Assembly: GCA_963969365.1 (NCBI GenBank) | Contig: OZ017749.1 | Coordinates: 3,720,001-3,784,000 of the forward strand | Direction: 5' to 3' | DNA from: Asterochloris sp. CNOR1 | Lineage: Eukaryota; Chlorophyta; Trebouxiophyceae; Trebouxiales; Trebouxiaceae | DNA: 64,000 bases | In this document: in pieces, positions 1 through 64,000 of the stretch | How positions within the stretch are numbered: the first letter of the stretch is position 1 | Layout: every line of letters starts with the position of its first letter | Made by a program: the position numbers and the translations under genes | Notes under the pieces: model-generated | The model's input: the letters and a program-made list of their open reading frames with translations, nothing else | Told to the model about the DNA's origin: nothing | The model's database searches: none

Positions 1-3000
1 TGACTGCCATGCAGCTGCACACAGCTCATCATGCCCAGCAGCCACTGGCATTGCTTTTAGCCAGGAGACCAGAACTGATGCCCAGGACAAAGGGCAGCGC
101 ACCTGTTTTGTCAGTGCAGATGGTGGTGGCAGTACCCATTGTCTCAGCAGCGCCCAGGTGGCGCACCAGGTTGTTGTCTGCCAGCATGCGCTTGACGCTG
201 TAGGCCAACGCGATGGTCACCGCCAGGGGAAGCCCCTCTGGGACAGCCACCACCTGCAGGCACAGACCATGGGGCCTGATGCAGGTGGGCACAGTTAATG
301 GTGCCTGATGCAGGGAAACAGCAGTTGCAGCCCAAAGGGGCGGGTCCTTAGGCACCGCCACCACCTGCAGCTACAGGGCGTGCTGCAGCAGCATGGTAGG
401 CATTTGCTCTGGCTGAGGGTAGGTGCACACCAGGGAACAGGCACCCCATGCCCTGACAGAGAGACCCGTGAAGACCCCAATATGTTGCAAATGCAAGATC
501 TCAGGGCCAACAGTCATCTGCACAAAGGGACAGGTGCTGTACGAGACACGCACAGTGACAGCCACAGGCAGCTGCTCTGCGACCGCCACAGTCTTAAACA
601 ACTAAGCACTGCTTTGCGTGAGCAGGCGGCCAGCCATGGCAATCAGAGCCACTGGCAGACGAGCACCATCTGCATAGGGGATGTCATACCGCGTCATATT
701 GCGTCAGGACTTCTCTGCCGCAGCTGCCAGTTGTGAACATGCCCAGAATGCGGGTAGGTGGATGGCACTGGCTGCCAAAACTGCCCCTAACAAGATGCAT
801 AGCAAATAGTGTCACTCAAGACCAGCAAAGCATTAGACGGGTACCACTGCACGACCCTGAGACTCACCAGGATTGTGATGGCAATGATCACGAAGTGCAG
901 GTAGTCAGAGGCAAAGCTCCAGTCCCAGCTCAGCCCGTCCACCACAAACTTCTGCCAGCTGTAGGTCCCTGCCATGGCAGCCAGGCTGAAGGCGGCCGCC
1001 CCCAGGCCAAACTTGCCAATGAGGCCAGCCAGATCCTCCAGCTTGGCCTGCAGCACGGTGCTTTCCCTGCAGGGCAAATGAGACAATGAGTCTCTTGGCA
1101 TCCCGGAAGCCATCAGCAGGGGAGCCATCATGGTCCAGATGTTCTTGGCTTGCCTCCTTGACCTACCCTCTCCCTGCACCTGTCCAGCCATCATGCCCTG
1201 CCACCTCTTTGCTCCCCATGGCGGTCAAGACAGGCCTCGCCAGCAGGCGCCATGAGGGCAGGTAACCTTGTGAGACCCAGTGCTGGCTTGCCTCATGGCA
1301 CCTTTCCACAGTTTGCACCACCCCAGCCAGCATGCACTGCTGGCTGTTGCGCCCAGCAACCGTCGGAACAGGAGGGCAAGCAACCCTTTAGGTCCCACAC
1401 ACCTTGTCCCCTGGCTTGCATCATGGGACATGAGTCTCCTCCAAAGACACTGTACCAGGCCGATGAACAAACCCTGGTGGCTACGGCGCCCCAAGCCAGT
1501 CAAGACAGGCCTCGCGAGCAGGCGCCGTGAGGGCAAGCAACCCCATTGTCGAGTCCCAGGAAATTGTTTCATGTCATTCTGGTTTTTGCGCTGCAGCTCG
1601 TGCCCTGCTACCCTAAACACGTAAGACTGACAACAAACCTCCCCAGCAGGCACCAGTAAGGCAAGCAACATGTGCTCATGTATCTATGGTGAACCCCTGA
1701 AAGGAAGCCACAATCCTGGCTTGCCTCATTGCATCATCCTCCCCCCCTCCCTGCACAAGCCCGGCAATCACGCCCTGCTGACTGTTGCTGCCCACGGCCG
1801 TCACCAGGATGCGCCCATCCCCCTCCAGCATTTTGCTGCCTGAGAACATCATGGGGTCCAGGTGGGGCTGCTTGGCGACTTCATCGGACTCCCCTGTGAG
1901 GTGACTCTCGTCCAGCCTGCAGCACAGCAGTCACTGGTTTGTCTGTCAGAAGGCCAGGCAACAACAACATCTGACTCCCCTGCGAGGTGGCTCTCGTCCA
2001 GCCTGCAGCACAGCAGTGACCGGCTCATTTCCCAAAAAGTCAAGCAACTTCATCTGTTGGGGGACAACTCCATCTGGATTCTGTGGCAGGTGGCTCTCGT
2101 CCCAGCCTGCAGCAATCAAAGTTGCCATTGGGGTGGTGGCTGGTCAGGCAGATTGAGCTGCTTGCTGAAGTGCAATGACTCCCTGTCAGGGTTCTCTCAT
2201 CTGGGCGCAGCACGGAAGGCGTTTACCCAGGAGCAGGTGCAGATCGGCAGAGCTGTCATTCTGAACATAAGCAGGCAGCTGGGGGACATCTGCTGCTCTG
2301 CAAGGGCCTCAGGCACTGCCAGAGTCAGCCTGCTGCAGCGTGAGCCAGCAGCTGCTCTCTGCCACACAGGCGCTTGGCGCCTGTCAGCAGGCAGCAGCGG
2401 CGGTGAGAGCTTTGATTGCGTGCGCATTGGTGCAGTGCTCGAGTTTCGATTCACAGCACTGTGGCAAAACCAGCGCTGATGAAAGGCATGGACTGAACTT
2501 GCCTGACATTGTTTCCCTTAAATAGGACACCGTCCGCTGCTAGGATGTCACCTGTCTCCACCTGCATGACGTCTCCCACCAGGAGGTCATACACGCTGAT
2601 CTGCTGAGTAGCACCATCCCGCGTCACTGTGACCTGCAGCAGGCAGCTGCTGCACTCAGGTACAGGGCTGGGGGCACAGGGCAGGCCAGGTGTGCCAGTG
2701 TGCAGAGCTGCAGCTGCAGCTGGCGGGCACGAATGTGACTCAATGCAGCTCTGGAGCATGTTGCTGGCTCAAGGTCCACCCTGCAGCACTGGCAGCATAT
2801 CTCATCAGACAAAGTTTGAGCAGGGGACCAGATCCAAGGCCTGCACTGCACGCGGGAATAGGTTTCTGCAATGTGTCGACAGGGAGATAACCTGTCATAT
2901 CCGTGGCCCATTCGACGGCCTAAAGCCCTTGACTGCCTGATTGCCCCCCCCCCCCCCCCCCCCCCAACCGCAAGAAACTTGCAGCGCAGAGCACATTCAG

Positions 3001-4958
3001 AAACGCTCCCTCAAAGAGGACTCGATGATCTGGGTTGTGTGGCAAGGCTCCTGAAGGGGCATCTTTGTCCTGAGCACAGCGCTGCACAAGCGCCACTGCC
3101 ACCAATGCAGATTTGTCACCTCTCTGATAAGAACATGTAACAGATCAGGTAGCTGAGCTGCTGGGACAACTTCCTGTCTGTCCTGAGCACCACAGGCAGC
3201 GCCAGCAATGCAGTCTGTTCCACTCAACAGGGCAAAGTCCCAATAAAGTCCTGCCTGAGCATCCTGGATGATGGCGCTGAGGTCCTGGAACTGCATCTCC
3301 TGAGTTTAAGGCATGATGACACAGCCCAGAGCACAGCCTGCCCTTTCAGGGAGCCGCCCCCTGGCATACAGGAACTTGCACTCCACTGCTTCTCACTGTT
3401 TTTTTTCTGGCCAAAAGGCGAGCTGATCGCAGGGCACAGCACAGCCGAGTGTACTCTTCACTCAAGTTGCTGAAAGGACAGTCACCTCCTACCTTGGCAT
3501 CCCGGGTGATGGCACTCAGCTCCTGAAACTGCCTCTCCTTCTGGTAGTCATTCACAGCCGTGACCAGCACGACGACCGCCACTGCCAGCAGGATGGCGGC
3601 CCCCTCAATCCAGCCAGCATCATCCTTGGACTCCACAGTGAGCCCCAGCACTAAGGATATTACGCCCGCCACCAGAAGTATGAGCACTGTGACGTCCTGC
3701 AGCGCGTTCCAGCACAGCTCCCAGAAGGTGACCTGCAGCCAAAGACAGGCAGCAAGAATGGCAGTGAGGCGGGAGGCCAGGTCAGCTCCATATTCTGCTC
3801 TGCAGAGAAGGCTTCCAGGCAAAGCTTCCAAGCCGAGTCCAGGACTTGGAGGCCTGCAGAGCGCTCAAGCACAGGTGCCAGAAGGTGACCTGCATAAGGA
3901 GGACCGAGGTGAGGCCGGAGCATTTGCGAGAAAAGAGGACAAGTCCCATGTTGTGAGCTGCAGAGAGGGTGACGCAAAGTGCTGTAGAGACAAGCAGTGT
4001 AAGTTGGCCTGCACGCAAACAGTTCACAAGTTGCAGCTTACAGGGTACAAAGACGCATGCATCTGCAAACATGATCGGAGGCAAAGACTCCAATGGCCTG
4101 CAGGGCGTTGCAGCAAAGCTCCCAGAAGGTGATCGGCTGGGAGGCAGCTGACAAATGGACAGGCATGCTTTTGAGGTAGTAAGAGGTCTGCCACCGTATA
4201 CCGTTCCCACAGGACATGCCTTGCAGGAGAGACTGACATGGGCTCATCTTGAGTGCAGACAAAGCTTTTGCAATCCAGCAGGGCCACCTTCTGCAGAGCC
4301 CCTATGGCCCCACCCGTGTCTCATTGAGTGCAAGGCACAGCAAGGACGGAACAACGCAAATGTCTTCACAAGCCCAAACAGCATTCCATCAAACGCGCAG
4401 GAGGTTGGCTGAGAGCAGCGCCATGATGCTCAGGGGCACAGCTTGAACGGCAAGAGAACACGCTGCAGCAGGCAGATAAATGACTGCTAAGGATGGCTTA
4501 GACTGGATCAGGCCGCCTCAAACAATCAGCCACACACCTGCTTCTTCCCTGGCAGCTGGTTCTGACCAAGAGCCTCAGCTCTGCTGGCAAACTCTGAGGC
4601 ATCAGTGCTCAGACCTCTGAGCAGGTTTGTGTTGACGCCATGTGCTAGGTCCTCCGCACTGTTGAAGCTGCCTGCAATGACGGAGACCCATCTTTACATG
4701 GGTGGGTGCAAAGCTGATCATCTGCAATGGCTACAGCAGCCAAAGCAGGCATCATGAGAGAGCTGCCAGCCACCTGTAGATCCTAAGCAAGTTGCATCCA
4801 GCACCACAGCCAGCCAGCCGAAGAGGTTGAGAATGACAAGGCAGAAGTGCTGGGCTTGCCTGTGCAGTAAAATCGGTCCTTCGGCAGTTCAGCCAGGTGC
4901 TGGAGCTCCTTGGCTGTGAAGCCATACTTCCCACGGGGGTTAGGCTCCCGGCCGGCCT
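1..4958 (-). CDS. P-type Ca2+-ATPase, PMCA/ACA type (partial, 3' end beyond the left edge)
   Basis: Pumps Ca2+ out of the cytosol at the cost of ATP; a multi-pass membrane P2B-type ATPase. Exons read on the minus strand: 4958-4860 (N-terminal region), 4671-4538 (ends [12 protein letters not shown]), 3732-3493 ([13 protein letters not shown], then the M1-M2 hairpin), 2633-2503 (actuator domain, [18 protein letters not shown]), 1916-1757 ([12 protein letters not shown], then [11 protein letters not shown]), 1066-868 ([18 protein letters not shown] plus a membrane segment), 253-103 ([13 protein letters not shown] and ICTDKTG, the phosphorylated Asp). Phases close except between 1757 and 1066, where a linker exon is probably missing, and upstream of 4958, where the first exon and start codon are unresolved. 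P- and N-domain exons after DKTG lie outside the window. Two introns start with GC (after 4860 and after 2503). Introns carry echoes of adjacent exon ends. Family identity is secure; P2B over other P2 classes rests on the PEGLPLAVT and TGES context. Confidence 0.9.
320..364 (-). repeat. Echo of Ca2+-ATPase exon head (VVAVPEG exon), copy 1
   Basis: On the minus strand a CTGCAG acceptor-like site is followed by a copy of the start of the 253-103 exon; it translates [17 protein letters not shown] against [17 protein letters not shown] in the exon. Identity drops after about 40 nt. It sits in the intron just upstream of the real acceptor. Confidence 0.75.
553..600 (-). repeat. Echo of Ca2+-ATPase exon head (VVAVPEG exon), copy 2
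   Basis: The second upstream copy of the 253-103 exon start reads [19 protein letters not shown], closely matching [19 protein letters not shown]. No good acceptor remains in front of it. Confidence 0.75.
1218..1700. repeat. Intronic repeats, including a tail echo of the TGES exon
   Basis: A unit starting near tcaagacaggcctcgc is found at about 1223 and 1498, with a weaker third copy near 1640. On the minus strand, about 1372-1308 translates as [17 protein letters not shown], a copy of the tail of the 1916-1757 exon ([17 protein letters not shown]). A linker exon between 1757 and 1066 may hide here, but I could not place its ends. Confidence 0.5.
1962..2002 (-). repeat. Echo of the TGES exon head, copy 1
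   Basis: Minus strand: a TGCTGCAG acceptor followed by [14 protein letters not shown], against [14 protein letters not shown] in the 1916-1757 exon. It lies upstream of the real exon in the same intron. Confidence 0.8.
2063..2106 (-). repeat. Echo of the TGES exon head, copy 2
   Basis: Minus strand: a TTGCTGCAG acceptor followed by [15 protein letters not shown], a more diverged copy of the same exon start with one inserted base. Confidence 0.75.
2945..2965. repeat. Homopolymer C tract
   Basis: An uninterrupted run of about 20 cytosines in a Ca2+-ATPase intron. Runs like this often vary in length and may be miscounted in the assembly. Confidence 0.9.
3246..3300 (-). repeat. Echo of Ca2+-ATPase exon tail ([13 protein letters not shown])
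   Basis: Minus strand reads [16 protein letters not shown], copying the last 13-15 codons of the 3732-3493 exon ([16 protein letters not shown]). It lies downstream of that exon, so this is a donor-side echo. Confidence 0.8.
3838..3889 (-). repeat. Echo of Ca2+-ATPase M1 exon head, copy 1
   Basis: Minus strand: TATGCAG then [17 protein letters not shown], against [17 protein letters not shown] in the real exon at 3732-3493. Confidence 0.8.
4085..4133 (-). repeat. Echo of Ca2+-ATPase M1 exon head, copy 2
   Basis: Minus strand reads [17 protein letters not shown], nearly identical to the M1 exon start for its first 11 codons and then unrelated. The acceptor AG has been lost. Confidence 0.8.
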
Positions 4959-8753: not shown

Positions 8754-8821
8754 CAGTTCCCCATACAGCCTTTGACCTGCCTGCCCTGTTGAATGACAAC
8801 TTTCATAGACGGTTGAAGCAA

Positions 8822-13926: not shown

Positions 13927-13967
13927 GCTCAGACAAGCAGGGCATGGGGTCATTCTGCAAATGATTT

Positions 13968-18314: not shown

Positions 18315-18350
18315 CGTCAGGGTTTACGATTGCCCTCGCCCATTCCTAGC

Positions 18351-19412: not shown

Positions 19413-22400
19413 ATGGCCTACACAGTGCGTCTGGATCAGAATAAGGCTAAAGAGTTGGCACGAACTGGGGCCAGCCTGCTACTGCTCAATGTTCCAGAAG
19501 GCACTCGCATCGGCATTGACCACCAGGTTTGGGCCTTAATGCAATTAGCAGCAAGGCTGCAATGTAAAGATCCTTAGCTAAGTGTTCAGGCTGGCTCTGG
19601 CTGCCAAGGCTGCTGCCAGTACTCAAGGCCCCACCACCTGCTCTGAGACAGTGTGACGCTGTGCAGCGCCACCTTGCTACAGACCCCTCCGCCCCTAGTA
19701 TACCTTCCCTGCAGAACTTCATGGCTGGCCCCAAGTTTCAGGGCGTGAAGATGCTGCCTCCGGGGGCTCACATGGTCTCGTACAATGCAGCTGGACAGGG
19801 CCAGCTGCGCCAGCAGGACTTTGGGCCCACCACCGCTTTTTTCCTGCACCTGGCCTCAGGGCAGGTGGAGGTGCGGCGCTGGGACGCCCAGCACGAGCTG
19901 CTGGTGGAGCTGGAAGAGGATGAGGTAGGCCCTGCATGCAGCAAGTGATGGTTGACCTGCCAAGAGGCAAGCTGAGGTCCGGTGCTGAGATACCCAGCAG
20001 GAGTAGCCGGTGACCTGGAAAAAGACGAGGTCAACTCTGCACTGCCTTGTTGGGACATGCGACTTTTGCCAGTCTGCAAGAATCTGCACCGCCTCAAGCC
20101 CTGCAGGCAAGCATTTGCGCTGCACATACCGCGCCACCCAAGCCCGCCATCCTCTGCTCTGTGCAGGCTGAGCGCTACGCTGCTGGCGTCAAGCGCTTTG
20201 ACTTTGATGCCGGGCTGGGGCCCTACGACCTGCACCGCTTTGCGCAGTGGCAGCGGCTGGCTGGCTTCATCTCAGATGGTGAGAAGTGGCTGGAGTGGGC
20301 CTCGTGGCAGCACTGGGGGCGACAGCATTGATGCCCATGCTTGTGATGCTCAATGACTGTGTCGAACGTACTCCCCAGCTTGTTCAGTTCCACAGCACCA
20401 TGCAACATGACAGTGCACGGCGTCCTCATGGAGATGGGTACCTGCATCATCATTATCATTGTTTTCTTGTCACTTGTCTGACGGCGGTTGCTCACCCCTC
20501 CATGTGCAGTCAGAGAATTGAGCTCTGCCCTGCAGACGTCATCCGCAGGCTGCAGCCTCTGCCCCGCGGCAACATGAGCATCACAGCGGAAGGGGACCCC
20601 AGCCTGCTGCAGCCAGCCACTGCTGCAGAGGAGCGCCTGTACCAGCAGCTCCGCGAGGGGAGGGAAGCAGGCGCTGCTGGTGAGACACGGTGCCCCACCA
20701 GAGCTGTGCGTAACAGGGGACGAAGGAGCTCTGGGACGGGCAAGAAACAGGCGCGCTGTACCCAGTGAAAGTTGTCTTTAGCCCAGAACTTCAGGCATGG
20801 TGGGTGACTTTCTCTATGATTGATGCAGCTGCTGCTCTGCCCTACTGGTTGCTTGCTGACGCCAGGGTCCCAGAGAGTGATCACGCGTAGAGAGTGCGTA
20901 CAGGTGGGAGGCTGCACGATCCTGACTTTGTGTTTGCTTTTGTTTGACTGTTGTGATCAAATGTTGCGTGCAGTTCCCAGCAGCATGGAGACAGACAGCA
21001 GCAGCGCACCCACAGCAGCAGCGGTGGCCGCTGGCGCTGCCTCACAGAGTCCCAGCGGCAGCATGCGTGCATCAGACCTCCCTGCCAGGGACCATGTGGG
21101 GCGAGCACGCTATACTGAGCTGCCTCGCGTTGTCAAGGTGCAGCCTGTCCCTGTCTTGTCAGGCTTAGGTTGCCCTTCAAGGCTCGCAATTGGCAAGTGA
21201 GTGTAAGACATCACAGCACATGTTTCAGCTGCATCTGTGACAGCAGTGAAGGTGCTTCACACAGTCTAAGGCAGCACCGCGGTACTTCTGTGCCACCTGA
21301 AGGTGCTGCGCACAACCTGCCACTCAGCATTGGGGGAAGTTTGTCGACACTTCAGCACCACAATTGATGCCTGACTGCCTGTGACAGAGGCGCTGCCAGT
21401 GCTGCAGGTCCCCGGAGTGACGGGCGCCCAACTGAGCGCGCTCAACCTGGACAAGAGCATGCTGCTGGAGCAGGTGCTGCAGAAGCAGTATCACAGGGAC
21501 AGCCGCCAGCTGCTGGGGGAGCTGCAATTTGCATTCCTCGCCTTTCTGAGGGGCCAGTCCCTGGAAGGTGGACCTTGTAATTTCAGCTTGAATGCTTTCA
21601 ACCAGGAGGTTTTCAGCGTGCTGGGTGTGTCAGGCCATGCCAACTGTTGGGTATCGGGACCTGCCTACCTATTTGGAGCTGTTGCTTGTGTTCAAACGCT
21701 TGTGCTTAGCAGATTTGGTGCAAGAAGTGCATTTGCCTCTCTTCCCCACCAGGCCCGGCACCAGCAAAGTCAGACAGAGGCTCCTGCATTGCTTGTTTCA
21801 GATGAAGGCATTGCCTTTGCCAGAGCCCTCTGTTATGGTCTCGCTGCATCATCCCCCAATTTCCAGCTTGGCCAAGAGAGCAGCAGGGGCTGCCTGAAAT
21901 GGAGCTAGTGTAGTTGTGACGAGAACCAGCAGGTCTCAACTGCCATGAATCGCCCCTGCATCGTGCGCCTGCAGGATTTGCTCAATGGAAGGCGCTTGTG
22001 CAGCTGCTGCTGAGCTGTGAGCAGGCCCCCCTGACAACCCAGCAGGGCCTATTTGTGAAGTTCCTGAACGCCCTACAGTCGCAGCTTGAAGTCAGCCTTC
22101 AGGAGGAGGTGAGGGGACTGTTGGTCAGCACATCCGCCCGCTTGGTGTCCGGCAAGGTAGCCTGCGCTAGCAGCACAACAGGCTGTGGCTGTCAATCCTG
22201 CAGCGCTGTGGGGCTTGCTCAAGGTGATGGCTCCTACTGCTTTGGACACTCCGCTTGTGCGAGCGCCGGACCCATGTCAAGTGCATCCCATCTGTTGCTG
22301 ATGCTGATTTTGCTGCTGAGATGCACCATGCACGCTGAGGCTGCCAGGGGCCTGCGTGTATCCAGCAGCCATGCCAAGCATTCCGTGTGTGTCTGCAGGC

Positions 22401-27921: not shown

Positions 27922-30900
27922 ATGCCATGCATGTCAAGACCGTGGGCAGGCCTGCTAGCAGGCCTATGTTGCCTGGGCCACCTGGCTCGGGGCCAGGCTC
28001 CAGCCCCGGCCCTTGCAGCCTGCAATGCTACTGAATGTGGTCAGCCACAGTTCAATGGAACAGCTACCTCTGACCCTGAAGCACCAGTAGGCATCAGCCA
28101 GTATGATCCAGCAGTGGTGGGTCCAGCGGCCAACCACACGCCCTGGCAGATCCACCTCCTTCCAGGTCAGCTGCAATCCCTTGCAGCCCGCCTGATGCCA
28201 TGTTACCTTGGATGCCAGCATGCATGCCTGCGCTGAGCTGCCATACTCCTGCACGTCATCCACAGGGAGGGTCAGCGGCTTGTGCTTCCATGTGTCATAA
28301 TAAGCTCAGTGAGCCTGCCAGCATGCAGTCATTTGTCCTGTCAGATGCACTTACGTAACCTTCCTGCCAAGCCCTGCTGGTCTGACCTTTGCACCCAGGA
28401 GGCTTCTGGGGTGTGCAGCATGCTACAGCACGTCAGGAATACATCCATCTTGCGAGCCAAGGTGCTTCAGGGTCAGAAGTCTGGCCGCCGGCTGGACAGC
28501 GTCGGGCAGCAGCCCACCACATGTGAGCCTGCTAATGCTGTGCTTGCAGGCTCGTCAGACATGCAGTACATGACTGCGGTCTGGGCCACCGGGCAGTACA
28601 TCACGGGCCCCAGCGAGGCCGGAGGACCCTGCGAGTCCGTCACTTATCAGCAGAACAGTGGGTGCACATGCTGCATGCATTGGGGTGGCGCATCAAGTCG
28701 TGCAGCCAAGGGGCGGGCAGGCTGCGGCCTCTGACTCAAAGGCGAAGCAGCGGATCATGCTGCTTTAGCAGTCTGTGGGTGCTGGCCCAGGGGCATGTTG
28801 CACAGCCTGCTAGATGGGCAGTTTGTGCTGCTAGCCAAGAGGCAGTGCTAGCACCAAAGGGGCCGGGCTGCAGCAGCCTGCAGGATGCGCCAAGCCCACA
28901 CCTCCTGTCAGCTCGGGCTGCAGCAAGTCGAGCCGCGCCCTGCAGCACTTGGCTGCCGCTGCCCAGCACACAGCGCCCGGCTCCAACAGAGCACAGTGGA
29001 GTGCGGCGCCTCACAGCACTGTCCCTGCAGGCACAGTCACACCACTGTTCCTGCAGGTACGGACGCCAACACCTGCACCAAGCAGCCCCCAAACACGCCC
29101 AACAACGTCAGCGCTGTGGGCAGCATGCTCCTCTTCTCAACCAGCTCCAGCATGACCAACCCCCAGCGGGCCAATGGCTATGCCCAGGTCTACACTCAGG
29201 TGAGCTTCAAGCAGTCCCTTGGCATCTGGTGTCTGTCAGAGAGTGCTGGCCGGCGTGAGCCAATGCCCCTGGGAGAGGCGCACCACTACCACGCTTGCAG
29301 CAGGCTGAGGGTGTGGAGAACTTCCAGAAGCAGGAGGGGCGCCTCTCAGCTGCAGATACTGCCTCCTGCCTTTTTACAGCTTAGCATCCCTTTAGACAGC
29401 TGCTTGACCAGAGGCTGGGGGGAGGGGGAGGGGGAAGGGGGGGGGAAGGGGGGGCTTCTGTGCATTGCCAGCCAGCATCACAGGCACACCTGCCCCTGCC
29501 CCGACGCAAAACGTCAGCCTGCAACATGGAACACGCGCACAGCACAGGCATGCTGCCCCTGCACTGATAAAATGTCGAAGCAGTCCAGCGAGCAGCATGC
29601 CTACCCAGCAGGGTTCCCGCGCCTGCCTCTGCCTCAGCGGCTTGCATTCAGCTCTCAGCATGCACATGCATATGCTCAGGGCAGGGGAGCCTCCAATTGC
29701 ATACGTACAGCACAGGCACAACTGCTGCCAGTGCAGAGCCCAAGGCAGTGCAACTCTCAGGTTGCCTCCAGCGCTGGGCGTGCACGTCAACATGCTTGGC
29801 TCAATGGAGGTTCAGCGCCTGCACGCACAGGACAGGCCACATCATCACACCTCCCTTAGTCTGGGGCCGCAGCCTCAGTCAGCAGGGCAGCAGCAGGGCT
29901 TGGCTTGGCACCAGACTGGCCAGCCAGCTGACCTGCAAAGCATGCCTCACACAAGCTCCATGCATTCACTGTCACATGTCGGGAACAAGGCCCCTCCAGC
30001 TGCATTCACATACTGTCTCAGGTAGGGAGCTACAGCTCCTGCCAGCAGACAGCAGCTTGAGACCAAAGACGCCAGCCCGTGGCCTGCAAAGCCTATTCAC
30101 AACATCTGCTACAGTAGACAGCAGCTTGGCACCAAGCTACGCCAGCCAGCGGCCTGCAAAGCCTGTCTCCTCTGTGCTACACTAGACAGCAGCCTGGCAC
30201 CAAGATACGCCAGCCCGTAGCCTGCAAAGCCTGTCCCCACTGTGCTACAGCAGACAGCAGCCCGTCACCATAGGCGCCAGCCAGTGGCCTGCAGAGCCTG
30301 TCCCCATCGTGCTGCCTCACCAAGTGTTTCTTACCCTGCCTGCAGCCCCAAGGCACTGCAGACAACATCCTCTCCTCCCTCATTGGCTTGGATGTGGACC
30401 TGGACGGTGCTCAGAACGGGACAGTGACTGATGGTGATGTCAGCTATTTCAGGTGAAGGCAGTCCAGTGCCTGCAGGAGCAGCGAAGGGGGGCGGGGGTG
30501 GTTGCACTGCAAGGGAGGCATGTCTTGTGCTTGGCTAGCATGCCTAGTGAGGCAGGCAGCAGCAGTCTCCTGGTTGGTCCAGCCTGCAGGCCAGGCATTG
30601 GTCTAGGGGTTAGGTTTCAGGGGCCTGCTGCGGCACTGCTGCTCTGGCAGGCCAGGCAGGTGCTGGGCTGCCTGGGCATGGAATGCTGGATGCCAGCTTG
30701 GGCAGACAAGCAGTGCTGTGCTGGGCGTGCCGTCTGCGTTCATGTGCACAGCAAGCAGAGGGCTCTGAAACCTGTGTGCTGTTGCAGCACAGTGCTGAGC
30801 CGACCCTCCTGTCTGCCTGCAGCCCTGTCATCCACACAGCCACCTTTGGCCCATTGCAACCAGGGGTCACGTACTTTTATCAGGCAAGTCTGTCACAGGT

Positions 30901-33900: not shown

Positions 33901-35975
33901 TATATGCTGCAGCCTGATGTTGAAGGCCTCCTGGACACTGCAGGTGGCTGTTTGTTGCAGTACACGAACCGTGGTACTCCAGCACCGCCCCCAGCAGCCA
34001 GGACCTCACTGGCGTCTTCACTATTGGAGAGAGCATCCTGAATGCCTTTGACAACAACACCAGCCCCCGTACAGGTGAGGCTGTCACTTGGAGCTGCTGC
34101 AGACAGCACAATCCATGTTTCTGCATTTGCTGTGTGCAACAACACCAGCTTTTGCGCAGGTGATGCTGTCACTCACAATTGCTGCAGACAGCATGAACCA
34201 TTCTGCGTTTGCTGTCTGCACCTTGTTGCTCACATTGGCATTTTGAGAGATGTTGCCAGCGGTGACTTGCTGCCTGAGATGGGTGTCTCTCGTTGATAGC
34301 CTGACATGTGTGTACCCTTGATGCTCACACAACCGACAGGAGCCTGATTGGGCTCATGCTGTTCCCCTGTGTGCAGGCTACTATGGCTATCTATTCTTCC
34401 AGCACGTCGAAGATCTCTTCTACCAGTATGGTGTGGACATGATCTTCACTGGCCATGAGCACAACTACGAGCGCACCTATCCTGTGTACCGCGACCAGGT
34501 CGACTCATGTGAGGGGCTCACCTGCATTTCCTACTCAGCTGTGCAGACCACCAGTGCTGACTTGCCTATGCAGCACAGAAGCAGGTCGAGTCATGCGAAG
34601 ACCCCACCTGCATCCTGTGCTCGGGCTGTGCAGGCAGGCTATGCTAGCATGGTGTGCGCAAAACAGATTGAGGACCCAATCTGCATCCCTAGCACGGCTT
34701 CTGCAAGCTAGGCTGGGCCTCCTGCCACCAGGGCCTGTCCATGCTGGAAGTGGCTGTGAGCTCTCCACCAGAATGAGGGTGGTAGCATCAATCTGTCAAA
34801 CCCCGAGTCAGCTCCAAATCTCCCCAGAGGGGCACGGCCTGCCAGAATCGACTCTGGGCAAGACTGGGGGACGTGCTCTGGGTGTAACCAGGCTGATCAT
34901 TGGTGGCGGCACTGGTGCTGTCCAGCACCAGCCCTGGCCCCCTACATCTGAAAGCAGCTGGATAGACTGAAGCTGAGGGTGTTGCCAGCATCAGCACCTC
35001 AGTGCAGGCCAAAGAGAGCCTCTCCAGCCAGCCCCCTCTATCACAAAAGACTGTCAATGCGCTGCAGGCGGCTTCGTGAATGTTGTCGTGGGCGATGGGG
35101 GGAATGAGGAGGGAGTCCAGAAGGACTTTCTTTCTGTGCAGCCTGCCTGGAGCGCCTACAGGGACCTGGCCTTTGGTGTAGCCTCCTTCGAGGTCCTGAA
35201 CACCACTTACGCCCATTGGCTCTGGACGGCCGACAATGGTACTCTGATTGATGAGGTGAGCCACTGACCCATGGTTGTGGGCCCCTCCCTGCACTCGGTG
35301 TTTGTTTTGATGATGATTGCAGGCCACAGCTGTGGTGCGCTGTGGTGCTCGCCTGGGCTGCCCAGCCTGCGTGGGCCTCTGTTGGATAAGACGAGTCAAT
35401 TGTATGCTGTAGCCAGAATAAACGGTCAGTGCTCGGGAGTGTGAGCTTTCAGGGCAGGTGTGCGGGATAAGCTCAACCCGTATCAGCATTGTGATCATGG
35501 TGCACAGCTCATGGCGCCTCCAAAGCATGCCGAGCTTTGGTACACAGTGTGTGCTGGTTCTCAAGGTGCTGCAGAAGGTGTTCTCTAGCTTTGATTGACA
35601 TGGTCATGCCGCTTTCCAAATGCATGAAGTCACCAAAAGTGCTGCACAGCACGCGCAGTCAGCATCTGCAGCAGGCCGCCACATGTGTCTGCCATCCAGG
35701 CTCTACAGCTTGCATCAACGGATGCACGGCAGCCGACAGGCTTCACCACAGAACTCAGAGCACGCTGCCTGAGCCGCTCCCGTGGTTCTGCCATGCAGGC
35801 CTATATCACTCGGCCAGCGCAGTGCGCCAACCACATTGCAGCCCCCTACACAGGGCCACCAGCTGCCCCTGCCCCGGCGCCGAGCGCCAGCAACTCTTCT
35901 TCAAATTCTTCCTCCAACTCCAGTGGCGGCGGCTTCATCAACGACATCGAATCGGCCTTTAACCACCTAAGATGA
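27922..35975 (+). CDS. Secreted purple acid phosphatase
   Basis: Metallophosphatase releasing phosphate from organic esters. Exons: 27922-28165, 28550-28657, 29057-29199, 30346-30452, 30823-30883, 31121-31229, 31720-31826, 32114-32158, 32288-32304, 32546-32631, 32945-33073, 33421-33559, 33944-34074, 34377-about 34498, a short uncertain exon, 35068-35255, 35799-35975. Metal-ligand blocks: ADLGQT, GDLAYA|DDY, GNHE, VAVHEPWY and GHEHNYER, in the right order, then VVVGDGGNEEG. A hydrophobic leader (WAGLLAGLCCLGHLARG) predicts secretion; many N-x-S/T sites fit this. The protein ends with a Ser/Asn-rich linker. Unusual points: exon 9 is only 17 nt; intron 5 starts GCAAGT; the junction after 34498 is ambiguous because the QVDSCEGLTC segment is duplicated. 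Length about 650 residues. Confidence 0.92.
29410..29453. repeat. G-rich tract
   Basis: A run of G-blocks separated by single A residues (gggggagggggaaggggggg pattern) in a purple acid phosphatase intron; G-quadruplex formation is possible. Confidence 0.85.
30047..30318. repeat. Intronic tandem array, ~68 bp x 4
   Basis: Units start at 30047, 30116, 30184 and 30252 with agacagcagc; each holds caccaag-, cgccagcc- and cctgcaaagcctg-like blocks. A more diverged copy lies near 29895-29960. The array ends about 30 bp before the exon 4 acceptor region of the acid phosphatase. Confidence 0.9.
34042..34220 (+). repeat. Echo of acid phosphatase exon 13 tail and donor
   Basis: The segment caacaacaccagc...acag|gtgaggctgtcact, continuing to tgcatttgctgt (34050-34133), is repeated directly at 34137-34220 with caacaacaccagc...gcag|gtgatgctgtcact. 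Both copies have a usable donor. Confidence 0.85.
34492..34632 (+). repeat. Duplicated QV(D/E)SCE segment of the acid phosphatase
   Basis: caggtcgactcatgtgaggg at 34496 and caggtcgagtcatgcgaaga at 34581 are ~85 nt apart and code for QVDSCEGLTC and QVESCEDPTC. Only one is likely to be used in the mature mRNA; sequence alone does not say which. Confidence 0.7.
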
Positions 35976-50423: not shown

Positions 50424-50471
50424 AGCCCATCTGATAGGCGGTGACTTCTTGCCTTCTTGCATCTCTTTGGG

Positions 50472-53400
50472 ATGCAGCCAATCCAATGCACACATTTGAA
50501 CCTCGATCATGGCAGTAGTAAGTCTGCATGGTGTTGTGGGAGCCGCCGAGGCAGCTTGAGCTCCCGGCGTGGTCACCATTCCAGCACCAGGAGACAGGGG
50601 GCCTGCAGGGTGCAGGCCAAGCTTGCTGAGGAGATCAAGCCCATGTCTGAGCAGGTCTGGTCAACCTGCCATGCAATCCAACAGCCTTGCCTGCTCTTCG
50701 TCTCTGCATTTTCACCGTGTCATTGTCCTGCAGTTTGCCACATTGAACAAGGGCATTGCCGGCTTCTATGATGAGAGCTCAGCACTGTGGGAGCGCATGT
50801 GGGGTGAGCTGGACTTGGCTCCATCTACAAAATCAATCATCAACAAATTTAATTTGTAAGAGCAGTCCTCTCCACCAGCCACCCAAGTTTTTGCCATGGT
50901 CCTTTACTGTGCAGGCGAGCACATGCACCATGGCTACTACCCTCAGGGTGCTCCGCCTAAGTCCAATGCCCAGGCTCAGATTGATATGATTGAGGAGACC
51001 CTGCGGTGGGCTGGAGCCACGTCTGCCACCAGTGTGAGTATGGCACCTTCCACTCTTGCAGTTGTGCCAGCCTGGAAGCATCATGTGCAGTCCTGTGCCA
51101 TGATTACAAGTGCCCATTGCCGCCACCTGACGACTTAGTGCCTGCCAGCCAACTTCTGGTTCAAAATCCAGCCAGTGTGCCTGCAGATGGTGGACGTGGG
51201 CTGCGGCATAGGCGGGAGCAGCCGTCACATTGCCCGCAAGTTTGGCTGCACCGCCAAGGGGATCACCTTGTCCCCAGTTCAGGTGGGTCTGCACCAGACC
51301 TGGTTGGTCACACCAAGAGCCGTTTGGCAGAAGTCTGTTTGCTGGCCATCATAGGCAGCTGCTGTCCACAGCTTGCAGCACGGCCTGTGCTGTTGTCAGG
51401 GCAATGACATCATGTGCTGCACTGTCGAGGCGCTGCTCAGACCTGCCAACAGCATGAGGAGAGGCCGCCATCGAGCAATGTTGCCACAGCTGTGCTGTCT
51501 GGCCCAAGGGGAATGCCAAGCCCCAGCCCCTGCAATCCCCTGCTGCACTTCTTTGCCTGCACCTCACAGCCTTTTCATGTGCTGGCAAGACATCCCCACC
51601 TGTCCTGCCATCTGCCGGCATGCATCAGTGGCACAAGCAAGCAGGAAGGGCACTTCGTGCCTCTCACTTCACCGACAACACAGCCTAGCAACATGCACTC
51701 TTGTAGGCTGCCTGGACCATGGCATGCATGAGCTGTTGCAGAGTCCCATGTCACAAAAGGGGTCTGCAGGCTGCTTGGGGCAACAGGCTGGCTCAGGTGT
51801 GGAAGCTGGGCAATTCATATGTAACATCAAAAGGTTCATGTCGGATGTTGTCTCCAGGCTGCTTCAGGGCAACAAGCTGGCCCAGGCGAAGAGGCTGGGC
51901 AAGCCATGTGTAGCATCTAAACATGCATATCAGTCGGGGTCTGCAGGCCGTTTCGGGGCAGTCAGCTGGCCCAGGGCAGCCCAGGCAAGAAGCTGGGCAA
52001 GCCATATGAAACACCAACAGACCCGTGTCGTCTGGTGTCTGCAGGCTGCTCGGGGTAACGAGCTGGCCCAGGCGCAGGGACTGGGAGACCGAGTCAGCTT
52101 TCAGGTGGCAGACGCCTTGCACCAGCCCTTTGAGGGCGGGCAGTTTGACCTTGTCTGGTCCATGGAGAGCGGGGAGCACATGCCCGACAAGGCGCAGTTC
52201 GTGGGGGAGCTGGCGCGCGTGTGCAAGCCGGGGGGCCGCATCATTGTGGTCACCTGGTGCCACAGGTGGGTGGCCTGGTGCCTCTGCCTGCAGCAATCTG
52301 GTTCCTGAGGAGCAGGCCCTGCAGGCCTTCTTGAGCCAGATGAGCTGACTGCCTCTGCCTGCGGGGGTGGGGCCTGAGGAGCAGGCCCTGCGGCCCTGCT
52401 GGACCAGATAAATTGCCTAAAGCATGCCTCTGCCTACAGGAATCTGGAGCCTGAGGAGCAGGCCCTGCAGGCCCTGCTGGACCAGATAAATTGCCTAAAG
52501 CATGCCTCTGCTTACAGGAATCTGGGGCCTGAGGAGCAGGCCCTGCAGGCAGATGAGCAGGCCCTGCTGAACCAGATCTGCAAGGCCTACTACCTGCCCC
52601 AGTGGTGCTCCATCAACGACTACGAGCGACTCATGGAGGCCAAGGGCCTCCAAGACATAAGAACAGCTGACTGGTCGGAGGAGGTGGCCCCCTTCTGGGG
52701 AGCTGTGATCCGCTCAGCGCTGTCTGTGGAGGGCTTCAAGGGCTTGTTCACAGCTGGGCTGAAGACCATTAAGGTGACCCCATCTAGCAGGGTCTCAGTC
52801 AAGGCATCATGCAGGACTGCAGCCGTGTGGTGTATGGAGGCTGTTCACGTCTGGGCTGAAGACAATAACAGCAGGTCAGGCTGTTGGCCGTTCATGTGAG
52901 TCACTGGGAATGTCTGCAGAAGAGCGAAGGCAGACAGCGGCCGCTTGCCACTGGGTTGGGAGACCATTGAGGTGGGCCTCCCTGTGCAGACTCGCCTCCG
53001 CCATTGTGAATGGCTCCTCTCTGGGTGTCAGCAAGGTCCCAGCTTTCTGCTGCATTTGGGCCGGTATGGGGATCAAGCGCTGGTGTTAACATCAGCTGAG
53101 AGACACCATGACAGTGGCCTGCAGCTTTCTGAAGGCAGGACAAAGCTGCCCTGTGGGTGAATTGGACATGGCTGCATTCTTACAGGTGGCTCTGCTTCAC
53201 AGAGGTGATGCAAGGCTGCATGCGAGGTTGCTGATGCAGCCTGCAATGTCTTTTGGACGACTGTCACAGTGTTGCAGTGCACAGAGGACGGGGACTGCAT
53301 TGCTGCGTGGCAAGCTCAGCTTCTGCAGGCTAGCCACGATGCTTGCTTGATGCAGAGGACGCGAAGCAGAGCTGTGCTGCAACGCCCCAATCAGCTAGGC

Positions 53401-54783: not shown

Positions 54784-57700
54784 TCAGCGCCCAGGGTCAA
54801 AGGCGTCGCCAAATCTGTCGGCGGCCCGCTGTGCCATCTTGACCACGCGAGACTCGTCATCATCAGCCTCCACCCGCCTGCAGCATGAGACAAACAATTG
54901 CATGACAGCCACGATCATATCCAGCCAATGTGCGGCATTTCTGGGGTGTGAGCCTTGCCACTACAGGGCAGACACCAAGGAGCCTGATGCCAGCTTTGCT
55001 TTGTCCACACCCTGAACCTGTTCACTCTGAACTATGAAAGAGCACACTCCAGACTCATGGCCAGGCACTGTGCACCCATTCATATCTGTAACTGCGGCCC
55101 AGTCCATGGATCAACCTGTTGAGACAGCCCAAAAATTATCAACCATGAACCCGTGCTCTATCTGCACTGACTCACCACTTGTGAGTTCGGGACCCCTCTG
55201 TGTCTGCATCATGAGCAGACCGGAACTTGGGCATCTCAGCGGGCTGCACAGGCAGTGGGGCCTCTTGAAACCAGCGGTGGCGAAGGGCCCGGCGTGCAGT
55301 CAAGCGCTTGCTGGGGTCATAGGTCAGCAGCCCATTCAACAGTTCGAGGCCTGCCTTGCCCAAGCGGGGGAAGGACTGCAGGCATCAGATCGGAGGTGCG
55401 TCAGCGGCTGCCTGTCAGCTTGATGCTGATGTGGACAAGCTTGGGAAAGGCCAAGGCAAAAACTCAGTGTCAGCAGCCTATGTAGGAGCCCCAGGCCTGT
55501 ATTGCCCAGGCAGGGGAAGGCACACAGGGCCCAATGCAGCAGTGCGTCAAGAGCCTGTTAAGAAGATGGCCAGCCTGAGCAGGGAAGTTGCATAGCCTCC
55601 CCCAAGTCAGCAGTATCTGCTGATTCAGGCGCCCTGCCCAGCTGGCGATGCTTGAGCTGTGAGGTCAGGGAAGCCAGGAGACTAGGTGTAGCAATGGCTC
55701 TTCTCACAGGCTGCTCAGCGGAAGCATACAGTCCTGGTGGCTCAGGTGCATGCTCTGGCATTGCAGAAGCTGTGTGAAGGAGTGCCTGTGGCATGGAACT
55801 GCTGCCGGCCCATCTCACCTGCTGTGTCAGATTGTAGGGCTGCGCTGGAAATTTGAACCCCGCAGCATTGGGGAGGGACGAGAAAGCCTGCAGCAGGCAG
55901 GACAGGGATCAGCAACGGCAGCACGGCCAGCTGCAGCTTGATCTGACACCTGGCAGGTCAGAGTTCCCGCATGCTATGGCCCCGGATACTGTCCGAAGCT
56001 TTTGGGCCTCCAGTGGTCTGCAGTGGCGCCACCCCCACTCTATCAGCAACAGCATCGGCTACCTCTAGCCTGGCTGGTCCTGACACCAGATAGGGTGTGA
56101 TGGCGCTTTTGATTGGGCAGTGGATACCCTATGTCTCACTGTGGCATACTTTAGCAAACTGGACACGCCTCACCGGCCAGATGTGGTCGTTGGGGGCCCC
56201 CAGCAGGCGGCTCATGGCCTCCAGCGTCTGGATGTCGGTCCGTGTCGGGAACAGGGGCTCATGCTTCAGCAGCTCCCCCATGATGCACCCGCAAGCCCAC
56301 ATGTCAATGGCTTCAGTGTAGGCTTCCATGCCCAGCAAAACCTCAGGCGCCCTGCAGCAGCACACCGATACTGCAAGGGGGTAATGCTACTGCATATGTA
56401 GCAGTGATTTCCCCATAGGCTGATGGGTTCAGTGTAGGCGTCCATTTTCCAGCAGCACCTCAGGCGCCCTTCACCAGAATACTGAACTTGCATGGCCTGC
56501 AAGGCAGCAGAGTGCTGCTGCTGTGACTGACGGCTGTGCCAAGCGAGAATGGTTGCCCACTTGTACAATGTCAAGACCACATTCAAACCACTTCAGGACG
56601 TCATGGTCCCCTAACAGCCTAGGCTGCCCACCTGTACCAGAGGGTGACCACTCTGGGAGTCATGGGCTCCTCATAGGCTCGGAAGTATCGCGCGAGGCCA
56701 AAGTCGCACAGCTTCAGGCGCCCATCCGAGGTGAGCAGCAGGTTGGACAGCTTGAGGTCGCGGTGCACCACCCAGTTCTGGTGCAGGTAGGCCACAGCCG
56801 ACAGCAGCTGCGGGGAGGGGACCGAGGTTGATGAGACGTAGGTGCCATTTTGCACACAACCCCGATTGACAGGTACACCACAGACCGCTGTCAGACTGCA
56901 AGCAGACACCTGCAGGCCGACCCAGACTTGGCAGTGTGAGCCATCCTCAACATGTCCATGTGCTGCTCTGATGCACATGGTGTCCCCCACCTGCAGCATG
57001 AGGCACTTGACCTCTGGCTCACTGAAGGGCTTGCGCATCGTGTCCAGCAGGCGCCCCAGGTCGTGGGCGCAGTACTCAAACACGAGGAAGACGCTGCAGC
57101 CGGCAGCACACACGTCAGCACAGCAAACTCCAGCCCTGGGAGGTGGCTGGGCAAGCCTGCCTGACTGGATGAACTGCAGGAGCTGGTCGGCGCATCCCCA
57201 GCTCAGTGCGCCCAACGCAGGGGTGCCACAACGCTCCTAAACCCCGCTTGCCCTTCAGCAGACGCAATTTCAAATACCTTATGTGCACCCAGGCAGGCTG
57301 CTGTGACGCCGCACCTGTCCAGCTTGCTGCCTGTCACGACCTTGAGAAGGTTGACCAGGTTGGGGTGCTTGCAGCTCTGGAGCACACGCAGCTCTCGAAC
57401 TGACGTGACGGGCAGTCCTGCGGGGCACACAGACACTCGGCTTCGCAAAAGCAATCAAGCCTGTGTCGAAAGGCATCGCGGCCTGCTCACGCTCATGTCT
57501 GCTTGTCAATGCAAGCCCTCTGGTGCACACAAACACACTCTGCGTTGCACTTGCAGACAAGCCTCTGCAATGCAGTCCTGTGTGTTGCAGGGCAGCGCCG
57601 CCGGCCAGGACACACACATTCCTGTCACAGGTAGCCCTGTGGTGCACACGAACGCCCTCTGCATTGCAACTGCAAGCATCTGTCTGCAGCGCTGTGTATT

Positions 57701-60316: not shown

Positions 60317-63300
60317 ATGGGTGACAGCAGCACCATCCTGCAGGATGCTGTCAGGAAACTGCTGGTGCTGTGCAGGGCGCCTGTGCCAGGCAAGAAAACA
60401 AGAAGGCTCCAGCCAGTGATCCGCCTGCATGCATCTTCAGCCACGCAGGCAGCCCTGAACAGTCATGGGCAGATCGCAGATCCCTCTCAGCATCGGATGG
60501 CCTCCAACGGAGCTGAGGTCCCCACTAGTGGTGCTGAGCAGCCCCCGGACCAGTCTGCTGAGGACACTTTGGACAATGACGAAGTGGACGCCAGAGCTGA
60601 TGACGGGCCCAGCCCGCCTGACAATGCGCAGCCGGTGAGGCTGCAGCATTTTGATGGCCTGCTCTGAGCTGGGAGCAGGCTGCCAAGGGGCTGCATTAGC
60701 AGTGATGTAGAGTTAGCCACAGTCATTCTCATGGCAGTCCTTCATGGCAGCCTTCATTCTCATGACAGCCTCATGCACCAGTTCTGCGCCAGCTGAGCTC
60801 AGGCCAACAGCTTGCATCCCAAGGGGGTTTCAATCTGTGTGTGTCCGCTCTGAGTACACAACTAATCCCTTTTGTGGTGCTGCAGAGCGCCACTTCTGCG
60901 CAAGCTAGTGATTGGCACCGCCAGCGTCTGCCTGACACCTTGTGAACTGCCTGGCTGCGGCCTGACCGTCCAGGGGTACTGGTCACCTGCAAAGCTCCAG
61001 ACAGCTGATGATTCAAACTGTAGAAAGTGATATAGGGTGTTCACCAGATCCTTGACCAGGCCAAAATGCACCCTGTCTGATGGCTGGGTCTGCTGAAGGT
61101 TGCCACACAGCCCATCCCTGACATCAGTGATGTCAGGGCGGCAGCTGGGTTTGACCCAGACCGCCGACCGGTCCGCACCAGCAGAGAAGACTACAGAGGG
61201 CCTAGGGTTGCACCCAGTAGGCGCTGGGATTTGAAAAATGTAGCCCTCTGCAGGAGGCCATGTACCTTCACCATGTCATGCTGTAGGGCTGCTCACGTTT
61301 CCCGTGTGTCCCCACTGTGCAGCTCTACTTGCCGGAGGTAGTGGCAGCCTGGGATCGGGAGGCTTACAACAAGCCCCCGGGCTTTGACTCCTCAGAGAGC
61401 GGCCCAGCGCTGGGCGGCTTTTTGGATGTGGCCGCGCATTCGGTGGGCGGGCGCTTGCAGGGGAAGTGGAAGCGAGTAAGTCTGGGCGGCTGAGGGGAAG
61501 TAGCGCTCCCTAAACGCTGTCTGCATGAGGCGTGGCTGTAAGGTGGCACGCAGGCGCAGAAGCGGGTAACCCTGGGTGGTTGTTGTGAGATTGTGCTCCC
61601 TAGGCGCTTCTGCATGAGGCGTGGCTGCAAGTCGGCACGCAGGCGCCTGCACGGGAAAGTGAAAATGGGCGAGTTACTCAGGGGCTGCCAAATGGCCTGC
61701 AGGGGTGAGTCTTAGCAGGGCAGCAGAGTGTCTGTGAGGTCATTTTGGCAGTGCTGGGACACACTGCTGCACAGTCTGGGGGAGGCCGTGTGCAGAGATG
61801 TGGAAGGCGATGCACGGTCAGACGCAATCTGCAGCCACATGCACAGCAGTTCCCAACGTCACACAACGTGCCGCCCAAACAGTCAATGCTGAGGGGATGC
61901 GCAGGCGTCAACAATGAAGCCGGGCAACGAACACTGACAGCTGCCAGGCAGCTGTAGAACAGCCTGCGCGCCTGTGCAGGGGCCCAGATGGCTGTGGGTC
62001 CCAACACGACATTGCCCTCCTAAGAGGTCATCTCCAGCCACCCTGGGACCCGGAGATTGATGTGGGTTGTGTATTCTTACAGCAGTGCTGACTCTGAGGT
62101 GGTTGCGCTGCAGGAGAACCAGGACTGCTACCTGCTCCAGCTGGACCGCCCTGATGAGTGGTGCGTGATGGGAGTCTTTGACGGGCATGGAGTCTACGGC
62201 GGCAAGGTCTCCTCGCACGTGCGCAATGCCTTCGCAGAGGTCCTCGGCTCTATGGATGGGCGCAGGGTGGGGCAGGACCCCCGCAAGGTAGAAACAGCGT
62301 TTTTTGGGGGCTGCAGGAGGCCGCTGCAACGAGTAAAGATGGCGAGCCTGGACCTCTGCAAAGTACTGCTGTTTACTTGATCACCGCAACGAGAAATTGT
62401 GTGCAAAGGCTGCACACAAAGAGGTGCTCAGCACTGTGAGCGCGCGCAGGATGGCACGACAAACCCTGAACCCTGCCAGACAGGTGCTCCTCATGGGATC
62501 GGACTCAGGTGCGCGTCCTGGCAGGAGGGCGAGCACCTCTGCATGTCCTGCGTGCTGCTCAGGGCAGGGCAGCCGTAGGATGACAGGGCATGACCGTTGC
62601 AGGGTCTGGCACCAACCGTGGCATGGCAAATAGTGACTGTGGCGCACCCTGGCAGGGCAGTGGGCATGCTCTCTCTGTCCTGCTTCACCAGCCTGACTGG
62701 TCTGCAGCTATTTCGGTGGCTGCTCAGGACATGGTGTCTGCAAGACAATGCAAGATGATGTTCCTCTCGTGAGCCAGCCAGAGGGGTCCACCCAGGCTCC
62801 GTCAGGGCTGACCCTGGCCGCCTGTGATTTGGCCAGTCAACCTATCATCTGCAGGCTCCCCTGCTGGCCCCTGCAGGCGCTGTGGACAGCCTTCCGTGAT
62901 GTGCACGAGTCGCTGTCGGCCCTGCCCTACAACTTGGCTCGCAGCGGAACAACGGCTGTGGTCTGCATCGTCACTAAGAAATGGTGAGGATGGCGACTGC
63001 TTGTTTGTTGCAGATCCAGGGACTGTGGGTGTTAGGGCGTGTGTTGGTGTGTTCCTCGCCCCGGCACTGATGGGCAGGGCAGTCACTGCTTGCTTCAGAG
63101 TGCGGGCTGCCAGTTGCTCAGTCTTGAAGCGCTGATGATCAGTCAGCTAGCCCCCGCCTCACAGCACAGGCCCATGTATGCATACTTCTTGAGCCCTGCA
63201 ATCACAGCTAGTTTGCGCTCGGGAGTGCACATGGCATGGCTGCATTGTCATGAGGCAACGCTGGCGGCAGCTGTGGCTCCCAAACAACACAGGTAGCCAC

Positions 63301-64000
63301 AGCTGGGGCCAGTAGCAATGCAGCGAGCAGCTGCTGTGCACCTCACTTTTTCTGGCAGGCTGCCAGCGTCACTTGTTGAGGCTGCCTCTGAGGGGACCAC
63401 AGCCTGCCATGCCTGGCTCCTCTGCACCGCAGGCAACAGGAAGTTGCAGGCATTGTAAGTAGATCAGTCAGGCAGGGAGGAGCTGTGGCACAGGTCCTGC
63501 TAGGGCACCAGCATTGTGTTTGAAGACCTGCACCTACTGCCCCTGTAGGGTGGCCACAGCCTGGGCGGGCGACTCCCGCGCGGTGTTAGGTCGCCACACA
63601 GGCGCTGCCGACCCCTTCAGCCAGACGGTGGACTCGGCCGACGGGGCGGTGCTGACCACCACCCCTGGCCACGGCTCTCGGGAGGGGTCCCGAGAGGTTT
63701 CTCGGATTCCGCCCCGGACGCGCTCTGCAGAAAGCGTCTCCACCCACCTGGAGAGCGCTGTGCAGGAGGTCAGCCGCATGGCAGGTTGCCCACACGCCCT
63801 GGCTGCTGCAGCATGGTGTGGGGGTGCAGCATGCATTGAAGGGGGTGTGCTGGTAAGGCAGCTCCTGCCAGCCACGTCCACCAAGTTCAGGAGCGCAACG
63901 TCAGTCGTACCCTTCAGCACTTCCTGTCTTGCCACACAGAAGGCATCAGAATCTGGCGCAGGCAGCAGTGCAAAAACAGTTTCCAGGATTTGGGAGCTAA
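60317..64000 (+). CDS. PP2C-type protein phosphatase (partial, 3' end beyond the right edge)
   Basis: Mg2+/Mn2+-dependent Ser/Thr phosphatase. Exons 60317-60634, 61323-61475, 62114-62287, 62877-62983, 63549-63768, 63940 onward; phases agree. The first ~155 residues are a non-catalytic acidic extension (SAEDTLDNDEVDARADDGPS). The catalytic core begins KRENQDCYLLQ, then VMGVFDGHGVYGGKVSSHV (metal-binding DGHG), ARSGTTAVVCIV and WAGDSRAVLGRH. After GDSRAV there is a Ser/Arg-rich insert (REGSREVSRIPPRTRSAESV) longer than usual. The last metal-binding motifs (DG..D, GDN) fall outside. Exon 1's link to exon 2 rests on matching phase and composition. Intron 2 has tail echoes of exon 2. Confidence 0.85.
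61450..61690 (+). repeat. Echoes of PP2C exon 2 tail (~100 bp x 3)
   Basis: The exon end ggcgcttgcaggggaagtgg (61449) is followed by a unit holding gtctgcatgaggcgtggctg...ggcacgcaggcgc. The unit is repeated as ttctgcatgaggcgtggctg at about 61609, ending in a ggcgcctgcacgggaaagtg copy of the exon end at 61643. A shorter copy, ggcgcagaagcgggtaaccc, lies at 61551. Confidence 0.8.

Follow-up and report, generated by a model that had tools for sequence, protein, structure and literature searches.

Introns in a 64,000-nucleotide window of the genome of the green alga Asterochloris sp. CNOR1 (contig C4, positions 3720001-3784000) repeatedly contain diverged direct copies of the splice junctions that border them. 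These copies, here called echoes, are very probably what remains of ordinary small tandem duplications, mostly ~60-200 base pairs in unit length, which would arise without need of a junction and then be filtered by selection. The analysis itself supports the existence of the copies, their excess over controls, their direction and size, the decay by codon position, the coding filter and the local origin of the stretches that were searched. The original prediction, based on six genes of the window, had presented the echoes as a pattern not known to be described. Taken as a claim for a new splicing-linked phenomenon, it does not stand: the observation is correct, and the cause is ordinary.

For the counts, 100 kilobases (kb) were fetched on each side of the window, and the joined 264-kb stretch was analysed; unless the window or the flanks are named, results refer to this stretch. 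All junctions are predicted, by a two-strand gene model trained on the 264 kb from seed sites already biased to TGCAG and GTRAG, and the consensus, which became sharper with training, is CTGCAG/G for acceptors and AG/GTGAG for donors (the slash marks the junction). Exclusion of 29 weak genes among the 93 predicted leaves 64 confident ones, with a median exon of ~107 nucleotides (nt), a median intron of 192.5 nt, and 490 introns whose 980 junctions lie within ~213 kb, about one per 217 nt. The main count is restricted to 682 junctions where the exon measures 30 nt or more and the intron 100 nt or more, comprising 344 exon heads and 338 exon tails.

About 6% of the tested junctions, 40 of 682 or roughly one in 17, carry an echo. 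A diverged direct copy occurs in the exon's own upstream intron for 23 of 344 heads, and in its own downstream intron for 17 of 338 tails. Unrelated introns of similar length give 3/1720 for heads and 0/1690 for tails, shuffled introns 0/344, and the reverse complement 0/344 and 0/338. The flanks alone, which had played no part in the original prediction, contain echoes at 18/274 heads and 14/272 tails, with 1/2740 and 3/2720 in unrelated controls; pooled, this is 32/546 against 4/5460 (Fisher p ~8e-30, controls treated as independent). The window alone contributes 5/70 heads and 3/66 tails. The predicted excess over shuffled and unrelated introns is therefore real, and the flanks confirm it. 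Probes placed elsewhere match at 0/45 and 1/41 in mid-exon, 7/167 and 7/165 at random sites inside introns, and 4/358 between genes.

The underlying repeats are overwhelmingly direct. Local repeats scoring at least 22 comprise 288 direct and 17 inverted pairs, against 0 direct and 10 inverted after dinucleotide shuffling, and self-comparison of the window (E value at most 1e-3) returns 23 direct and 3 inverted pairs; two of those direct pairs join reverse-transcriptase copies that lie far apart. The motif TGCAG is abundant everywhere in the stretch: intron interiors have 6.1 per kb, and 7.4 when the opposite strand is read, with 5.4 between genes and 4.9 in coding sequence. Since base composition alone predicts 1.0 per kb in introns, intron interiors show a roughly sixfold excess, and a TGCAG inside a copy is weak evidence by itself.

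Echoes are not specific to junctions. In a matched test that gives each junction and interior probe a 300-nt target, copies appear at 13/133 acceptors and 9/130 donors, in intron interiors at 45/1046 and 38/1046 (overlapping probes), and at gene ends at 2/50 stop codons and 1/39 starts (few genes); unrelated introns give 0/2568. The 288 strong direct pairs collapse into 99 clusters, of which 64 are exon-intron, 18 intron-intron, 9 exon-exon and 8 outside genes, and random placement of 99 clusters leads one to expect 54.4, 20.2, 8.4 and 16.0, respectively. With one junction per ~217 nt, a duplication whose two copies together span ~200 nt will often touch one.

Small tandem duplications could thus arise anywhere, and because these genes are dense in short exons and introns, many would touch a junction. 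Those that alter the protein would mostly be lost. A duplication across an acceptor would be harmless only if the downstream acceptor is used, so that the upstream copy becomes intron; one across a donor would be harmless only if the upstream donor is used, and the downstream copy then becomes intron. Selection at the level of the protein would by itself yield the placement rule on both strands. The spare copy would then decay neutrally in the intron, and the exon copy would be held by selection. As for the molecular cause, the duplications may come from staggered breaks or adjacent nicks that are filled in and joined, a route known from plants and mammalian cells. Of the two causes proposed earlier, the one that gains support is that local tandem duplications recur across junctions and the copy left in the intron decays.

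The placement itself, claimed as consistent on both strands, is a tendency and not an absolute rule. Heads find copies upstream in 23/344 cases and downstream in 5/247 (Fisher p 0.01), and tails show 17/338 on the expected side and 5/247 on the wrong one (p 0.08). Nor does the rule prove that the repetition is non-random, as had been argued, since random duplication combined with protein constraint produces it, with 54.4 exon-intron clusters expected and 64 seen.

The coding filter is visible in the spacing: eight of the nine exon-exon clusters have one divisible by three (binomial p 0.001), but only 21 of the 64 exon-intron clusters do (p 1.0). The ratio of aligned length to spacing has a median of 1.01 in intron-only clusters, with 12 of 18 at 0.8 or above, and of 0.73 in exon-intron clusters, with 29 of 64; the lower value fits decay, but it is weaker evidence for a head-to-tail geometry. 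Median spacing is 87 nt for intron clusters and 113 nt for exon-intron clusters (10-90% ranges 66-226 and 74-342), which agrees with the 50-200 bp units expected of break-repair duplications; the lower edge of this size range is soft, as BLAST probably misses some spacings below ~50 nt. As a gauge of microhomology at the breakpoints, aligned length minus spacing was taken in 17 near-full cases; the values lie between -21 and +7 apart from a single +62, and the ends of the copies have decayed. Five duplicated stretches, four at named junctions and one other, were also searched in the whole genome of 56.4 megabases and 21 contigs, a search that scores only the best candidates and skips very common words. 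Four match their own locus only, and the fifth, which lies away from the named junctions, finds a partial match of 70 nt on another contig; this argues against mobile introns. Introners had been considered as a source, and similar sequence at many unrelated loci would then be expected.

Decay by codon position was followed in 45 pooled events, collected under looser limits of 25 nt of exon and 60 nt of intron; several involve probably false small exons that were retained, and in two the extended alignment covers intron alone, so that they contribute nothing to the exon counts. Mismatches between exon and echo number 139/700, 115/700 and 188/694 at the first, second and third codon positions. 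Second-position mismatches mainly estimate the decay of the echo, which has drifted at every position, and the exon has changed chiefly at third positions. This pattern speaks against upkeep of the echo as a second exon. Tandem duplicated, mutually exclusive exons are rejected, as the second copy is not kept coding and its first and second positions have decayed. Copies born diverged through error-prone copying, an idea raised because few copies are young, are likewise set aside, since the same excess in exons indicates real age.

Several results weigh against ordinary duplication as the whole account. In straddling pairs, intron columns are 75.9% and exon columns 78.0% identical within the same events, whereas neutral decay of both intron copies would predict about double the divergence; this figure is given little weight, because local alignment trims the worst parts. 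Young copies are few: the best pair reaches 90% identity in a single one of the 99 clusters, and a steady rate predicts more. A scan of the best 50-nt windows is more even (23 of 119 at 90% or above), and duplication may once have been more frequent. Nor are coding repeats rare, as 47 of 570 probes placed within long exons match exon sequence upstream, and exon-exon pairs number 50 against 22.6 at random. Pair-level counts between genes are low (2 against 17.3), as are clusters outside genes (8 against 16.0), and copies between genes are found by 3/649 probes, or by 33/1368 when everything outside confident genes is counted. This intergenic depletion arises largely because the gene finder labelled repeats as weak genes, yet a factor of two remains at the cluster level. 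Junction probes, moreover, match 2.1 times as often as interior probes (22/263 against 83/2092), with a Fisher p of 0.002 that takes overlapping probes for independent ones and so overstates the significance. When random duplication is simulated with decay, an assumed coding filter and unit lengths set by hand, the model predicts a junction-to-interior ratio of 0.12-0.13 under uniform ages and of 0.16 or 0.22-0.23 under older ages, and the observed 0.29 for acceptors and 0.24 for donors lie above all of these.

It is this last excess that gives some room to a duplication process directed at exon-intron borders by splicing or transcription, for example through R-loops or nicking near exon ends, which we regard as quite unlikely. 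Besides the junction probes, the surplus of exon-intron clusters (64 against 54.4) and the shortage of intron-intron pairs (29 against 50.6) speak for such a process. Pairs with one straddling copy and one non-exonic copy number 64 against 56.4 at random; in all these pair-level counts, random placement fits less closely than it does for clusters, and pairs from one array are not independent. The excess is small, however, and partly expected from the slower decay of pairs that contain an exon, since a pair with one constrained copy stays detectable longer (simulated ratio 1.57). The simulation reaches 0.23, close below the 0.24-0.29 observed, and similar copies lie in intron interiors and at two of the 50 stop codons. 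The leftover junction excess may be anything between none and about twofold, and rests on 22 junction matches. Retention of the echoes as decoy or alternative splice sites for the regulation of splicing, the other cause proposed earlier, finds less favour still and is very improbable. AG survives in 16 of the 20 acceptor echoes that could be aligned, where the identity of each pair predicts 12.6, but GT is kept in only 5 of 11 donor echoes against 6.6 expected, the opposite direction. The dinucleotide persists and the site outscores the lowest 5% of real ones in 12 of the 20 acceptor and 4 of the 11 donor echoes. Across these 20 and 11 echoes, selection on echo splice sites shows no clear departure from neutral retention, which is not clearly different from the identity of the flanking sequence. 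A pair of methyltransferase acceptors 78 nt apart, both intact, in frame and stop-free, does suit a decoy, whereas the decayed first and second codon positions indicate that the copies are not maintained as coding alternatives, and two exon-like echo segments have no counterpart in aligned homologues. A mixed view, in which echoes provide a lasting reserve of second splice sites that are nearly functional, some of them in use as in this methyltransferase pair, and the duplication rate is mildly raised at exon borders, is unlikely.

Two further explanations have almost nothing in their favour. Birth of introns by tandem genomic duplication of AGGT-bearing segments, with the intron as one unit, is scarcely credible here: one of 490 introns scores at least 16 with its donor and acceptor regions in register, control pairing giving 2/9800, and register 0 shows no excess over other shifts. 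This sole case (C4 ~3673359-3673474; window coordinates -46641 to -46526) is better read as a threefold array of one donor region, CAAGCAG/GTG, that mimics an intron born by tandem duplication, and a second look-alike depends on a predicted exon of 3 nt. An origin in errors of assembly, in collapsed haplotypes or in artefacts of the gene model has an equally negligible chance. The gene finder did turn echoes into small, probably false exons at three places or more; however, divergence of ~20-30% is far above haplotype level, the repeats are present in the DNA regardless of the gene model, and five of the six named genes have Pfam support. The near-absence of cluster best pairs at 90% identity likewise speaks against collapsed haplotypes, which the original prediction had named as grounds for refutation. 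Ordinary small tandem duplication therefore remains the preferred reading.

The six named genes illustrate these points. Copies beside junctions are present in all six, as had been reported, although in the acid phosphatase and PP2C-like genes they share only ~7-23 nt of exon; exon probes exceed the threshold in four of the six, and these two are seen only as mostly intronic pairs. Pfam matches identify the Ca-ATPase, AAR2, acid phosphatase, methyltransferase and kinase genes. The labels gamma-TMT and CDK10 come from the original prediction, and the best PDB matches are the methyltransferase MitM and CDK11B, respectively. Pfam and PDB searches with the PP2C-like gene returned no match; its name therefore rests on a DGHG motif, which we take to be that of a PP2C.

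In the Ca2+-ATPase gene, on the minus strand, the exon at 1676..1916 (gene model; Pfam PF00122) has its real acceptor at 1916, and the alignment with PMCA2 resumes in this exon. Its first acceptor echo, at 1968..2048 (-), lies 86 nt away and is 81% identical, with TGCTGCAG intact; a second, found by alignment, lies at 2064..2114 (-). Part of the first echo (1976-2002) was mis-called as a 27-nt exon, and model residues 229-253, which cover this false exon and the end of the preceding one, have no counterpart in PMCA2. The junction at 3732 has an acceptor echo at 3853..3894 (-), 88% identical over 42 nt, and a third copy at 4097-4137. Adjoining that third copy is a predicted 27-nt exon at 4071-4097 (-), where PMCA2 has a nine-residue gap; it is probably another false exon built from duplicated DNA. 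A donor echo of the 3492/3493 junction lies at 3221..3301 (-), 238 nt away.

The remaining genes show the same arrangement. The AAR2 gene, identified by Pfam, carries a donor echo of junction 19924 at 19966..20041 (+), 106 nt away and with GT kept. In the acid phosphatase gene, donor echoes of junctions 34074 and 34508 lie at 34137..34220 (+), 85 nt away with ~19-23 nt of exon, and at 34582..34633 (+), 86 nt away with ~13 nt of exon; both fall below the exon-probe threshold. The same gene model contains an intron-only tandem array at 30043..30313 (+), with four copies of period 68, which is the same process without any junction. The cyclin-dependent kinase (CDK) gene, supported by Pfam and PDB, has acceptor echoes of junction 56351 at 56412..56495 (-), 116 nt away, and of junction 55375 at 55469..55549 (-), 146 nt away and with AG lost. 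The copy beside donor 61475 in the PP2C-like gene, at 61559..61646 (+) and 90 nt away, is almost wholly intron, with ~7 nt of exon.

The methyltransferase gene, on the plus strand, holds the richest arrays. Upstream of junction 52045, acceptor echoes form a tandem array at 51759..52034 (+), with a Tandem Repeats Finder (TRF) period of 88-89 (51759-52074). A predicted 27-nt exon at 51770-51796 inside this array is probably false, judging from the alignments: each of the two listed PDB matches lacks nine residues at this point, which is the length of the exon. Homologues thus lack the echo-encoded residues in two genes, this one and the Ca2+-ATPase. Three further copies of an acceptor region (52294, 52363 and 52440) occupy 52294..52517 (+) upstream of 52518, with a TRF period of 78 and 96% matches. 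Across the resulting four-copy region (52294-52550), AG is intact at 52294, 52440 and 52518 and lost at 52363. The acceptors at 52440 and 52518 would be the best candidates for real double use, to judge from their sequence; the gene model used 52440, and we assume from plant relatives that 52518 is the main one. The four-copy region offers a natural test of acceptor choice.

Other features of the window stand apart from the echoes. A 200-nt duplication at 14783-15260, its copies 279 nt apart and 84-85% identical, shares 70 nt (87%) with contig C6. Positions 10001-14000 form a GC-rich island, at 72% and 66% against ~53-61% elsewhere in the window, with a predicted 12-exon gene whose eleven introns are short (65-115 nt) and whose cysteine pattern we take to be RING-finger-like. 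Two reverse-transcriptase open reading frames on the minus strand, at 16077-18264 and 37750-39352, share ~65% DNA identity and are presumably of the non-long-terminal-repeat retrotransposon kind.

The mutation class behind the echoes, the small tandem duplication, is already described, and echoes are not a new kind of system. A rice study reports such duplications among structural mutations larger than 50 bp (PMC7971508); those are recent and polarised by an outgroup, whereas the copies here are old and decayed and come from one genome, which blurs their breakpoints. In human and mouse cells, according to PMC8355091, fill-in by Pol alpha-primase/CST followed by end-joining makes small tandem duplications like those proposed here, although that work concerns Cas9 breaks in mammalian cells and the present copies are known from sequence alone. 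A single case like this appears in PMC4974935 on the potato RNA-dependent RNA polymerase gene, where a tandem duplication across an intron-exon boundary created an intron. Its unit, like the acceptor echoes, joins the 3' side of an intron to the 5' side of an exon, but the potato gene gained a new intron, whereas the reading in this alga is that an existing intron took up the spare copy. Intron gain by tandem duplication is covered in a review (PMC3443670), and direct repeats at the splice sites of novel Drosophila introns are described in PMC2809761. Intron birth of this sort likewise touches splice sites, but it needs a donor and an acceptor in register one unit apart. The earlier statement that no such genome-wide pattern had been described stands in part: the full-text literature matches listed, a coverage that leaves out most subscription journals, include no genome-wide survey of junction-spanning copies, yet the mutation class and the potato acceptor-crossing case are published.

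Collectively, these findings give the echoes a use beyond their origin. Anchored to an exon that preserves much of the starting sequence, they are datable copies, and they record neutral substitution and indel patterns, as well as the rate of small duplication, in a single genome and with no need of an outgroup. Gene finders, the one used here included, are misled by them, and the study of splice-site choice gains from them a collection of natural decoy sites.

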